From NCBI GenBank assembly GCA_016779935.1, contig JADHMQ010000001.1, forward strand, positions 316,369 to 380,368: a DNA stretch of 64,000 bases, given 5' to 3'. The position numbers and the translations under genes are program-made. This DNA comes from Flavobacteriales bacterium (GTDB lineage Bacteria; Bacteroidota; Bacteroidia; Flavobacteriales; UBA7312). Below, in pieces: positions 11,981-50,865 of this stretch. Within the stretch, counting starts at the first letter, position 1; the number at the start of each line of letters is the position of its first letter. The notes beneath the pieces are model-generated. The model saw only the letters and a program-made list of their open reading frames with translations. It made no database searches and was not told the DNA's origin.

Positions 11981-12010
11981 ATGTTATTCGTTTAATATTA
12001 CTTCTTTTTA

Positions 12011-12018
12011 TATTTTTG
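12011..12018 (+). promoter_or_regulatory. -7 promoter element (TATTTTTG) before the DUF2141 gene
   Basis: An exact TAnnTTTG match 16 bases before the ATG at 12035. No convincing TTG sits at the expected -33 spacing. It suggests the DUF2141 gene has its own promoter, separate from the helicase gene. Confidence 0.4.
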
Positions 12019-12034
12019 CTGTAAATGTATTGCC

Positions 12035-12466
12035 ATGAAATCTAAAGGACTGCTTTATATCCTTGTATTGCTATTGTTAGCTCTTTTCCCCAATAAAAAA
12101 ACAGTTGATTTAGAAGTAATCGTTCGTAATATTATTGAAAAGTCTGGCAACATTGAATTAGCTGTTTTTTATAACCCTAGATTATTTATAAAAAAGAATA
12201 AAGCTCTTAGAAATTACTCTAGAAAAGTAAAGGGCGACACCCTTATCTTTAGGATAAATGCTTTAAGTAAAGGAGAATATGCTATTTCACTTTACCACGA
12301 TATAAATTCAGACAAGGAATGTAATCTAACTATTTTGGGTATTCCTAAAGAACCCTATGGTTTTTCTAATAATGTAAAACCACGGTTTAATAAACCTAAA
12401 TTTAAAGACTGTAAGTTTAAACTTAAAGAAAATACATCAATTGATATTAAACTTATACGATATTAG
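12035..12466 (+). CDS. DUF2141 domain protein, exported
   Basis: 143 residues. A short hydrophobic N-terminus (LLYILVLLLLALF) suggests export to the periplasm. The remainder is one DUF2141 domain: VDLEVIVRNI, GNIELAVFYNP, GEYAISLYHDINSD and LGIPKEPYGFSNN. The HD.N and GFSNN segments are the family's most conserved points. The domain is common in Bacteroidota envelope proteins, but its molecular role is unknown. It stands alone with its own likely promoter. Confidence 0.82.
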   Translation: MKSKGLLYILVLLLLALFPNKKTVDLEVIVRNIIEKSGNIELAVFYNPRLFIKKNKALRNYSRKVKGDTLIFRINALSKGEYAISLYHDINSDKECNLTILGIPKEPYGFSNNVKPRFNKPKFKDCKFKLKENTSIDIKLIRY

Positions 12467-12480
12467 ACTGATAGAATTAA

Positions 12481-12517
12481 AAACAACTTCTCTAATATTG
12501 TGCTAGAGAAGGTGTTT
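12481..12517 (-). terminator. Rho-independent terminator of the candidate small gene
   Basis: A 14-base stem with one mismatch (12481-12494 with 12504-12517) and a 9-base loop. Read on the minus strand it ends in TTTTT (12483-12479), the usual U-tract. On the plus strand no T-run follows, so it mainly serves minus-strand transcription, ending ten bases after the 32-codon ORF. It might also form at the 3' end of the DUF2141 mRNA. Confidence 0.6.
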
Positions 12518-12526
12518 GTTGCATGC

Positions 12527-12625
12527 TTATTTCCAATAGAATAGGCTTTCGTAATCGGGTAGGCTAGTCTGATAGTCGGCATCGCCAGTATTGGAGAGTA
12601 ATAAAAGAAAGAGTATGTTTTTCAT
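12527..12625 (-). CDS. Candidate 32-residue small protein, unrecognised
   Basis: ATG (12623-12625) to TAA (12527-12529) encodes 32 residues: MKNILFLLLLSN, then a polar acidic stretch and the end LFYWK. No family is recognised. The hydrophobic run is only about ten residues, too short to be sure of membrane insertion. Support comes from context: an intrinsic terminator in the right orientation ten bases beyond the stop, an FNR-like palindrome 64 bases upstream of the start, and insulation from the peroxiredoxin gene by that gene's own terminator. It could instead be a small regulatory RNA with a chance ORF. Confidence 0.4.
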   Translation of the reverse strand: MKNILFLLLLSNTGDADYQTSLPDYESLFYWK

Positions 12626-12688
12626 GGCAAGCCTATTTAAGAATTAAAATTTTGGCTCGAATCTTAGTAATAAATCAGTATAAGAAGT

Positions 12689-12702
12689 ATGACCTACATC
12701 AC
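12689..12702 (-). promoter_or_regulatory. FNR-like palindrome upstream of the candidate small gene
   Basis: The plus strand reads ATGACCTACATCAC, nearly identical to ATGACCTAAATCAT beside the Crp/Fnr gene at 49.8 kb, and close to the FNR/DNR pattern TTGATnnnnATCAA. On the minus strand a weak -7 match (AAGATTCG, 12658-12665) would put the site near -41, the usual position for an activator of this family. The link to the 49.8 kb regulator is inference. Confidence 0.4.
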
Positions 12703-12730
12703 ACTTTATTAAAAGAATTTCATAAAAAAA

Positions 12731-12750
12731 GCCCGAGCATTTGCTCGGGC
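12731..12750 (-). terminator. Strong intrinsic terminator of the peroxiredoxin gene
   Basis: GCCCGAGC and GCTCGGGC form a perfect 8-base GC-rich stem around a 4-base loop. On the minus strand seven Ts follow directly (12730-12724), starting 25 bases after the peroxiredoxin stop. Four Ts follow on the plus strand, so it may also work that way. Confidence 0.9.
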
Positions 12751-12774
12751 TTTTATACTAAAAAGACAATCGTT

Positions 12775-13404
12775 TTAGTGCTTTGAAAGGTAATCGGCAA
12801 CACCTGAGAAACTTTCTTTCATAGCGTCTTTTCCTTTAGACCAGTTAGCCGGACAAACCTCACCTTCTTCTTCAAAATGTTGTAAAGCATCTACCATTCT
12901 TAGAGCTTCATCTACATTTCTTCCTAATGGAAAGTTATTTACGATTTGGTGTTGTACTACACCTTCTTTGTCGATAAGGAATAATCCTCTGTAAGCAGTC
13001 ATTGGGCCTTCAGCTTCTAACTCATCGTTTTCATTGATGAAATAGTCACCTGCCAATACACCGAAGTTTACAGCAACTGTTTTAGCAACATCAGCAACGA
13101 TAGGGTAGGTAATACCTTTAATACCACCGTTGTTTTTATCTACTTGTAACCATCCCCAGTGACTTTCTGGAGTGTCTGTAGAACATGCAACGACTTCTAC
13201 GCCTTTAGCTTGGAATTCGTTAAGTTTAGCCTGAAAAGCGTGAAGCTCTGATGGGCAAACAAAGGTAAAATCTTTAGGGTAGAAGAAAAATAACACGTGC
13301 TTCTTACCGATGAATTGTTCTAGTGAGAAACCGTCAACGATTTTACCACCATTTACGACAGCTTTAGTGCTGAATTTAGGGGCTTTTTTTCCTACTAATA
13401 CCAT
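12775..13404 (-). CDS. Typical 2-Cys peroxiredoxin (AhpC/Prx1)
   Basis: 209 residues. It reduces hydrogen peroxide and organic peroxides in the cytoplasm using a thiol pair. The peroxidatic cysteine is Cys50 in FYPKDFTFVCPSE, and the resolving cysteine is Cys184 in GEVCPANW, so it is the typical 2-Cys class. The GVLAGDYFIN region and the C-terminal KESFSGVADYLSKH tail fit the family. It appears monocistronic: a -7 element lies 41 bases upstream and a strong terminator follows. No ahpF reductase gene is adjacent. Confidence 0.93.
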   Translation of the reverse strand: MVLVGKKAPKFSTKAVVNGGKIVDGFSLEQFIGKKHVLFFFYPKDFTFVCPSELHAFQAKLNEFQAKGVEVVACSTDTPESHWGWLQVDKNNGGIKGITYPIVADVAKTVAVNFGVLAGDYFINENDELEAEGPMTAYRGLFLIDKEGVVQHQIVNNFPLGRNVDEALRMVDALQHFEEEGEVCPANWSKGKDAMKESFSGVADYLSKH

Positions 13405-49220: not shown

Positions 49221-49817
49221 TCATCTAAAAATTTTGTGTTTAATTAATTTGATTTTATTCTGAGCTTCAAGCTTTTTAATAGTTCTAATTACTGTTTCTA
49301 CTCTTAGACCTATTAAGTCTGCCAATTGCTGCCTGCTTAACCTTACTTTATATTCAAATGGTTCATGTATTTTATAAATATCATTCTTCAGGTAATCAAT
49401 AAGTGCAATTATTTTATGCTCTGGGTTTTCAATAGATATTTCTGATGATATAACTGCTTTATAGTGCAAGTGTTTTGAAATGGCTTTAGATACTTCAAAA
49501 TGTACATTCATGTTTTCCTCTAATAAGGATAAAAAACCCTTTTTGGGAAGTAACCAAACTTTACTTTCTTCAAGAGCTATACAATTTGCAGGGTATTTAT
49601 ATTCTCCTAATAGGGCCGATTCTCCTACTCCTCTTCCTTCTGAAAAAATGGATTGTATAAACTCTTTTCCAAATGAGTTTGTATTGCAAACTTTGACTTC
49701 ACCTTTATCCAATTGAAAATAATATCTAGGAATATCGTTTTGTCTAAAAAGAAAGTCTCCTTCTTTGTATTCTTTTAAACGAGCGTTGTACCTTATAAGT
49801 AAGTCGCTTGATATCAT
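49221..49817 (-). CDS. Crp/Fnr family transcriptional regulator
   Basis: 198 residues: an N-terminal cyclic-nucleotide-binding-type beta-barrel (DKGEVKVCNTNSFGKE, GVGESALLGEYKYPANC) and a C-terminal winged helix (LSRQQLADLIGLRVETVIRTIKKLE). Only two cysteines occur in the sensory domain (Cys44, Cys79), so it lacks the four-cysteine iron-sulphur cluster of FNR. A haem or other ligand as in DNR-type NO sensors is possible. It is divergent from a truncated-haemoglobin cluster, with an FNR-like palindrome in the gap, which suggests it controls that cluster and itself. Confidence 0.87.
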   Translation of the reverse strand: MISSDLLIRYNARLKEYKEGDFLFRQNDIPRYYFQLDKGEVKVCNTNSFGKEFIQSIFSEGRGVGESALLGEYKYPANCIALEESKVWLLPKKGFLSLLEENMNVHFEVSKAISKHLHYKAVISSEISIENPEHKIIALIDYLKNDIYKIHEPFEYKVRLSRQQLADLIGLRVETVIRTIKKLEAQNKIKLIKHKIFR

Positions 49818-49831
49818 GGCTAATAAGTTTT

Positions 49832-49845
49832 ATGACCTAAATCAT
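49832..49845. promoter_or_regulatory. FNR-like palindrome in the Crp/Fnr-haemoglobin intergenic region
   Basis: The plus strand reads ATGACCTAAATCAT; the outer flanks extend the symmetry by one base each side. It resembles TTGATnnnnATCAA. It lies 15 bases upstream of the Crp/Fnr ATG and is centred near -41 relative to a likely start site downstream of GAATTTTG (49868-49875) for the haemoglobin cluster. Confidence 0.55.
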
Positions 49846-49908
49846 ATAATAAGTACGCTTTAAGTCAGAATTTTGATATCGTAAAGTTAACTAAATATTT
49901 AAAAACGT

Positions 49909-50208
49909 ATGAGTTTAATTGAAAAATATAACGATTCTCAATTCTGGAAAGAAATGGAATTCTATAGATTTTCCATTATGATGTTTACCATCACATTTGG
50001 AACAGCACTAGCATCTATTGCTATTTACTATCTATTTGAGTTGAATCAAAGTGCCTTTTTTATTCCTGTAGCTATCGTAGCTTTTTTTGCAATGGGTGCT
50101 AATGCAGCAGCTATTGCTCAATCACCATTAAAGTGGGTAGTTAGTATTTTCACTTCTTCAGTAATTTTATCTATTTTATTTATTTTTTATGCTTTTTTAG
50201 TGGCATAG
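49909..50208 (+). CDS. Unrecognised small membrane protein of the haemoglobin cluster
   Basis: 99 residues with a polar N-terminus (SLIEKYNDSQFWKEMEFYRF) and three hydrophobic helices of about 20 residues each. No family is recognised. It is the first gene of a tight plus-strand cluster with the cupin-like and truncated-haemoglobin genes (gaps of four and five bases), under the FNR-like palindrome. The position suggests a part in oxygen or nitric-oxide physiology, but there is no direct sequence evidence for binding of a cofactor. Confidence 0.65.
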   Translation: MSLIEKYNDSQFWKEMEFYRFSIMMFTITFGTALASIAIYYLFELNQSAFFIPVAIVAFFAMGANAAAIAQSPLKWVVSIFTSSVILSILFIFYAFLVA

Positions 50209-50212
50209 AGTA

Positions 50213-50482
50213 ATGGCAAAACCTGTTACTAACCTTCTTTGGAAAAAAGAAAATTCTAAAGTAATCCTTATAGAACTTTCAAAAGGTGTTGAGTTAAAAG
50301 AGCATAAAATTCCTAGTACTAATGATTTAGCAATTCTGAGAGTTTTAAAGGGTAAAGTTGAGTACAAAACTTCACATAAGGATATTACATTAAATAGTTT
50401 AGAAAAAGTAGATATTCCAAAAGAAGAATTGCATTCTGTTGTTGGTATTGATGACTCTATCTGTCTATTAATATTAGATTAA
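50213..50482 (+). CDS. Unrecognised small protein, possibly cupin-like
   Basis: 89 residues, soluble, no signal peptide. The sequence alternates short hydrophobic strands (VILIELSKGVEL, LAILRVLKGKVEY, LEKVDIPKEELHSVVG, ICLLILD) in a way that fits a single small beta-barrel such as a cupin. The cupin metal motifs are not clear: only His-rich fragments such as EHKIP and EELHSV can be seen. It sits between a membrane protein and a truncated haemoglobin with gaps of four to five bases, so it belongs to the same transcript. Confidence 0.6.
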   Translation: MAKPVTNLLWKKENSKVILIELSKGVELKEHKIPSTNDLAILRVLKGKVEYKTSHKDITLNSLEKVDIPKEELHSVVGIDDSICLLILD

Positions 50483-50487
50483 AGCGA

Positions 50488-50865
50488 ATGAGAAATATTA
50501 AAACATATGAGGATATCAAACAATTAGTAGATTCATTTTACCAAAAAGTTGTAAGTGATGACATGATTGGATATATCTTTACAGAAATCCAAAGAGTGAA
50601 TTGGGATTATCATTTACCTCGCATGTATTCCTTTTGGCAAACGGTATTATTTGGTGATGTCTCTTACAAGGGGAATCCAATGCTGAAACACTTTTATGTC
50701 AATAAAAATGAACCCTTAAAAGCAGAATATTTTCAGAGGTGGTTGTTTTTATGGGAAAACACTATAAACGATTTGTTCAAAGGTGAAGTAGCAGAAAAAG
50801 CTAAATATAGTGCCAAAAACATGGCTGTAGGACTTCAAAACACTTTGAAAATACCTTTACATTAA
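50488..50865 (+). CDS. Group III truncated haemoglobin
   Basis: 125 residues. It matches group III truncated globins: B10 tyrosine in SFYQKV (Tyr18), HLPRMYSFWQTVLFG, GNPMLKH with probable proximal His68, and YFQRWLFLWENTI with the G8 tryptophan. Such proteins bind haem and handle oxygen, nitric oxide or peroxide, as Ctb does in Campylobacter. The stop overlaps the convergent ABC-F gene by nine bases. The FNR-like site and the Crp/Fnr gene next door suggest induction at low oxygen or under nitric oxide (inference). Confidence 0.85.
   Translation: MRNIKTYEDIKQLVDSFYQKVVSDDMIGYIFTEIQRVNWDYHLPRMYSFWQTVLFGDVSYKGNPMLKHFYVNKNEPLKAEYFQRWLFLWENTINDLFKGEVAEKAKYSAKNMAVGLQNTLKIPLH

Follow-up and report, generated by a model that had tools for sequence, protein, structure and literature searches.

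A probable lineage-specific small gene or regulatory RNA behind a predicted Crp/Fnr-type operator in a convergent gap of a Flavobacteriales genome

The convergent gap and its minus-strand features

The locus is a 308-bp gap between two convergent genes (12467-12774) in the genome of a Flavobacteriales bacterium; positions are those of the window, the whole stretch of 64,000 nucleotides analysed here. On the plus strand, the gene for a DUF2141 protein (PF09912; 12035-12466) has its 3′ end toward the gap, as has the minus-strand gene for a peroxiredoxin (AhpC/TSA with 1-cysPrx_C; 12775-13404). The two genes have a bidirectional terminator in common (12725-12757), which is kept in relatives. About 94% of the DNA is coding in the 380-kb stretch of the contig that was analysed, where only 3 of the 49 convergent gaps measure at least 300 bp, and DNA in convergent gaps accounts for 0.7% of the contig.

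Three features follow one another on the minus strand of this gap. A palindrome at 12688-12703 comes first, then an ORF of 32 codons at 12625-12527, and last an intrinsic terminator at 12511-12487. All three had been named in a preliminary description of this DNA, and all three are present. The terminator had been described as having a T-tract ten bases after the stop codon. It is better delimited as a core stem CTTCTCTAGCACAATATTAGAGAAG (12511-12487) followed by TTGTTTTTAA, and what begins about 10 bases past the stop codon is an outer AACAA/TTGTT stem, the whole structure covering 12477-12511 on the minus strand. Terminator-like sites are enriched around the gap (3 in 12000-13200 versus 0.5 expected), and the T-tract of the 12511-12487 hairpin is better on its minus-strand side.

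Most of the gap is moreover specific to the genome studied. In two genomes of the same family (G003 and G006), the same two neighbour genes are separated by roughly 90 and 70 bp, and these gaps contain just the bidirectional terminator equivalent to 12725-12757. A segment of about 235 bp (approximately 12484-12720; the borders are approximate) is thus either extra in the lineage of the window or lost in the lineages of these relatives. The only genome of the same genus (G001, 66% complete) has no match to the peroxiredoxin or the DUF2141 protein, so that insertion and loss of the segment are not polarisable within the genus. The 234-bp unit has no DNA homologue in 397 other genomes of the order, and the 32-codon ORF has neither a significant match in a protein search of 98 other genomes nor a Pfam match. 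Conservation of the ORF or the palindrome in close relatives, which the preliminary description had looked to, therefore does not hold, and the lack of homologues in the order precludes a test for selection. We also considered and rejected a repeat or mobile element for the extra segment: no second copy was found in the same genome, and the one significant partial match is to the start of a patatin-like gene, described below. Separately, a comparison of the DUF2141 C-terminus (12440-12484) with G006 showed an apparent one-base indel just 5′ of the stop codon, adjoining the border of the extra segment. Searching the genome contigs with the DUF2141 protein returned one distant locus, in Brumimicrobium.

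The predicted operator, its probable regulator and the promoter geometry

The best extent of the palindrome is 16 bp, TATGACCTACATCACA (12688-12703, centre 12695.5; reverse complement TGTGATGTAGGTCATA), and we regard it as a predicted Crp/Fnr-family operator. Its earlier reading as FNR-like did not stand, as the resemblance to the FNR consensus is not significant. The FNR operator (TTGATNNNNATCAA) was rejected as evidence for the 12688 site, which differs from it by 3 mismatches; the window contains 730 matches to the generic consensus TTGATN4ATCAA with 3 mismatches versus 661 expected.

A far closer counterpart is found elsewhere in the window. A minus-strand gene at 49221-49817 encodes a regulator of the Crp/Fnr family (cNMP_binding and HTH_Crp_2 domains), and between it and a divergent plus-strand operon (49909-50865), which encodes a 99-aa membrane protein, an 89-aa small protein and a truncated globin (PF01152), lies the operator TATGACCTAAATCATA (49831-49846). 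This operator and TATGACCTACATCACA are identical at 14 of 16 bases. In G006 and G013, the orthologues of the regulator gene have TATGATATAAATCATA and TATGACTTAGGTCACA, respectively, at the same place, before the regulator/globin pair; G006 has the regulator orthologue yet lacks the gap segment. A pattern search of the whole genome with TRTGAYNTARRTCAYA returned exactly two places with zero mismatches, the 12688 site and the regulator's own operator.

We then scored sites with a matrix for which other genomes alone had supplied the sites. In the 767 kb scored, out of a genome of 1.68 Mb, the globin site reached 22.7 bits, the 12688 site 19.1 bits and a site before hemN 18.6 bits, and the next best site reached 13.1 bits. 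The 12688 site thus ranks second in 767 kb and is one of three outliers, and the relatives-only matrix also recovers hemN, an expected target. In first-order simulated DNA, 0.2 sites as good as 12688 are expected by chance per 1.68-Mb genome; with 0.7% of the contig lying in convergent gaps, about 0.0014 such sites per genome are expected there. Pure chance had been the first reading of the palindrome, and it was dropped after the regulator's own operator, the operators of the orthologues and the relatives-only matrix. Both neighbour genes end at the gap, which leaves a promoter within the gap as the only one that the 12688 site could serve. From these matches, the regulator at 49221-49817 is the probable binder of 12688-12703.

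This regulator is not FNR. Its translation contains two isolated cysteines and no N-terminal cysteine cluster, and it scores far below the cut-off of the PRK11161 Fnr model, on which grounds the oxygen-sensing, [4Fe-4S]-type FNR was rejected. Sites for the operator in the same genome precede the globin operon and hemN (TIGR00538, above cut-off), and sites with one mismatch each are found at an IscA-like Fe-S gene and a CBS-domain gene. In relatives, sites are found at a hemerythrin-domain gene adjoining a NarK-like transporter, at a molybdate-type regulator adjoining MoeA and at ccoN (TIGR00780, above cut-off). Globin, hemerythrin, HemN, cbb3 oxidase and molybdenum-cofactor targets would make up a low-oxygen or nitrogen-oxide set. 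As the regulator lacks the FNR cysteine cluster, we infer its signal from this set, which points to low oxygen or nitric oxide. The proposal that a small minus-strand unit is under oxygen- or NO-type control is thus strongly supported with respect to a Crp/Fnr-type operator, by motif, position and regulon, but not with respect to FNR as the matching regulator. Together, the regulator, the small membrane protein, the 89-aa protein and the truncated globin, with the conserved operator TATGAYNTARRTCATA, apparently represent an undescribed Bacteroidota regulon of the low-oxygen/NO type.

The hemN site is a perfect palindrome, TATGATATATATCATA (G000:C1:153918-153933), whose distance to the hemN ATG is 41.5 nt, so that with such a promoter geometry either the hemN message would be leaderless or the site would act in another way. 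A one-mismatch operator between aldehyde dehydrogenase-like and CBS-domain genes is kept in this genome and in G003, and no orthologue of the regulator was found in G003.

The position of the 12688 site can be compared with that of the promoter. In Flavobacterium johnsoniae, the first base of the -7 element TAnnTTTG is at -12 (PMC6847099). A degenerate version of this Bacteroidota element, TAAGATTCG (12658-12666, minus strand), is located 29.5-30.5 nt from the operator centre, and with the first base at -12 this spacing puts the operator at -41.5 or -42.5. The element matches at 4 of 6 positions at each of two adjacent offsets, which is expected 16% of the time and is weak by itself, in agreement with the weak -7 match described before. 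Among 12 other gene-ward promoters with this operator, 7 have a -7 match of at least 5/6 at 29.5-30.5 nt from the operator centre (chance 3% each). The centre of the 12688 operator is therefore about -41.5 from the predicted start (12654 or 12653), close to the value of about -41 given earlier, a predicted spacing that would be like that of those seven promoters. From the operator/-7 geometry and the terminator, a minus-strand transcript of about 176 nt (12479-12654) is predicted.

The 32-codon ORF and a patatin-like gene start

The 32-codon ORF MKNILFLLLLSNTGDADYQTSLPDYESLFYWK occupies 12527-12625 on the minus strand. An ATG ORF of at least 30 codons occurs somewhere in a shuffled gap of the same make-up 46% of the time, so the existence of the ORF alone is weak evidence; such an ORF starts in a given 16-nt interval in 2.7% of the shuffled gaps. 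Its codon-usage score falls in the usual range of random short ORFs and does not discriminate, and its start codon has no A at position -3. Its ATG is 70.5 nt from the operator centre, a distance identical to that in the genome's own globin operon.

The start of the ORF resembles that of another gene. The segment 12590-12631 (minus strand) shares 86% identity over 42 nt (E = 3.7e-7) with the leader and first 12 codons of the single patatin-like gene in the genome (counterpart G000:C1:275314-275355). The alignment score of the two starts is 63, whereas the maximum in 4851 pairs of signal-peptide-type gene starts is 51, and 0.0075 matches as good are expected from a Gumbel fit. Similarity beyond codon 12 or upstream of the segment is not above that of shuffles. 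The patatin-like gene, which adjoins lgt (C1:274365-275349), differs from the ORF in encoding 327 residues and in having another promoter setting. These results suggest that the ORF start is a copied initiation and signal-peptide segment joined to unrelated sequence. Read by eye, the N-terminus consists of MKN, the hydrophobic core ILFLLLL and SNTGDA followed by D, and signal-peptide cleavage after A16 (between GDA and D) is possible, but the core is only 7 residues long. As a separate observation, the patatin-like gene adjoining lgt in G001 (C29:9653-10251) has apparent stops or frameshifts, whereas the copy in the genome studied here is intact.

Interpretation and relation to known systems

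The gap probably holds a real, tiny, stand-alone and lineage-specific unit, a stress-induced small gene or regulatory RNA. With an operator and a terminator around a correctly placed ORF, an inducible minus-strand transcript is the best reading, and to its full form, a lineage-specific unit of about 176 nt with class-II activation by the regulator at 49221-49817 and the ORF peptide as the likely product, we give a probability of roughly 60%. Starting from the operator match, its geometry, the ORF, the terminator, the absence in relatives and the patatin-start resemblance, all of which are seen directly in the DNA, we would predict regulator binding, its signal, transcription, translation and a function of the unit. 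The active regulator would bind 12688-12703, as at a class-II promoter, some 41.5 bp upstream of a start near 12654. RNA polymerase would then run leftwards and halt at the hairpin 12511-12487, leaving an RNA of about 176 nt. The signal, judged from gene neighbours and predicted targets, would be low oxygen or nitric oxide. The RNA would contain the correctly placed ORF, whose leader and first 12 codons may be a duplicated piece of the patatin-like gene start. As the ORF start looks copied from that gene, the most likely primary product would be a short exported or membrane-directed peptide, and the RNA itself may also have a role.

A start without a patatin-like continuation, a hydrophobic stretch of just 7 residues and the lack of conservation in relatives could also be explained by decay. 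The unit would then be what is left of a former operator-controlled gene for a secreted protein, whose body was lost by internal deletion and whose promoter, signal-peptide start and terminator persist without function. We hold this explanation as possible, at a tentative level. In a genome of about 94% coding density, useless DNA should vanish fast, yet the operator, ORF and terminator are intact; moreover, the rest of the ORF has no protein relative in the 98 other genomes searched, and at this locus the DNA of relatives shows no trace of a parent gene.

About as tentative is the explanation that the operator-controlled transcript is a non-coding sRNA, comparable to FnrS of enterobacteria or the gonococcal counterpart, with an incidental or vestigial ORF. 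The predicted anatomy of the unit is that of the anaerobically induced fnrS of Neisseria gonorrhoeae, which has a class-II Crp/Fnr site at about -41.5, a short transcript and a Rho-independent terminator (PMC3032703), and about half of such gaps would contain an ORF of this length by chance alone. However, RNA folding of both strands was not more stable than that of shuffles (z about -0.5), and duplex prediction with 611 predicted gene starts yielded strong matches mainly at doubtful starts and no clear target. No Rfam family matched in the window at the gathering threshold, and sub-threshold matches in 12300-12900 were centred mostly on the flanking terminator hairpin. The ORF start, in addition, resembles a real gene start and is at the distance typical of the regulon. 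The gap unit also differs from FnrS and fnrS in lacking any sequence relation to them (no Rfam match), in its operator, TATGAN6TCATA rather than TTGATN4ATCAA, in a regulator without the FNR cysteine motif, in its Bacteroidota promoter and in its 32-codon ORF with a signal-peptide-like start.

A further reading, in which a newborn gene arose when a copied patatin-like initiation and signal-peptide segment came under the low-oxygen/NO operator and was fused to non-coding DNA, and now yields a regulated, exported peptide of 16-32 residues in this lineage only, we consider somewhat doubtful. Quite unlikely is an accidental palindrome in a gap without a transcription unit, where the hairpin, about 20 nt past the DUF2141 stop codon, would be an additional terminator of that gene: the non-significant generic FNR match, the equally good folding of shuffles and the absence of the segment in relatives would agree with it, but the 0.2 sites expected per genome and about 0.0014 in convergent gaps, the recovery of hemN by the same matrix and the better T-tract on the minus-strand side speak against it. 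Our confidences in these explanations overlap and do not sum to one, because the decayed gene and the regulatory RNA involve the same transcription unit.

Related circuits are known in other systems. SnoA of Bacteroides thetaiotaomicron is likewise a small Bacteroidota transcript tied to a nitrosative-stress circuit of the Crp/Fnr family, described in a preprint; it lies antisense to the hcp promoter, and HcpR does not influence its level (PMC13370916). The gap unit differs in being located in a convergent gap and in being a predicted direct target of the regulator at 49221-49817. That regulator is similar to HcpR, DNR and NnrR, which belong to the Crp/Fnr family, have no FNR cysteine cluster and have neighbours and predicted targets of nitrogen-oxide or low-oxygen metabolism (PMC1274295). 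In contrast to HcpR, it is paired with a truncated globin and not with hcp, and its operator TATGAYNTARRTCATA is unlike the HcpR2 motif GTAACN4GTTAC and the HcpR1 motif TTGACN4GTCAA.

Small transcripts under Crp/Fnr control are known mainly from Proteobacteria. If the reading of an inducible minus-strand unit is true, the same circuit design would have arisen a second time in a Bacteroidota, there with another operator and another promoter. With the operator motif and the small predicted regulon, comprising the globin, HemN and the gap unit and, in relatives, hemerythrin/NarK-like, cbb3 oxidase and Mo-cofactor genes, oxygen/NO control in this group becomes open to direct tests, and the patatin-like start is a concrete test case for how short ORFs gain translation and export signals.
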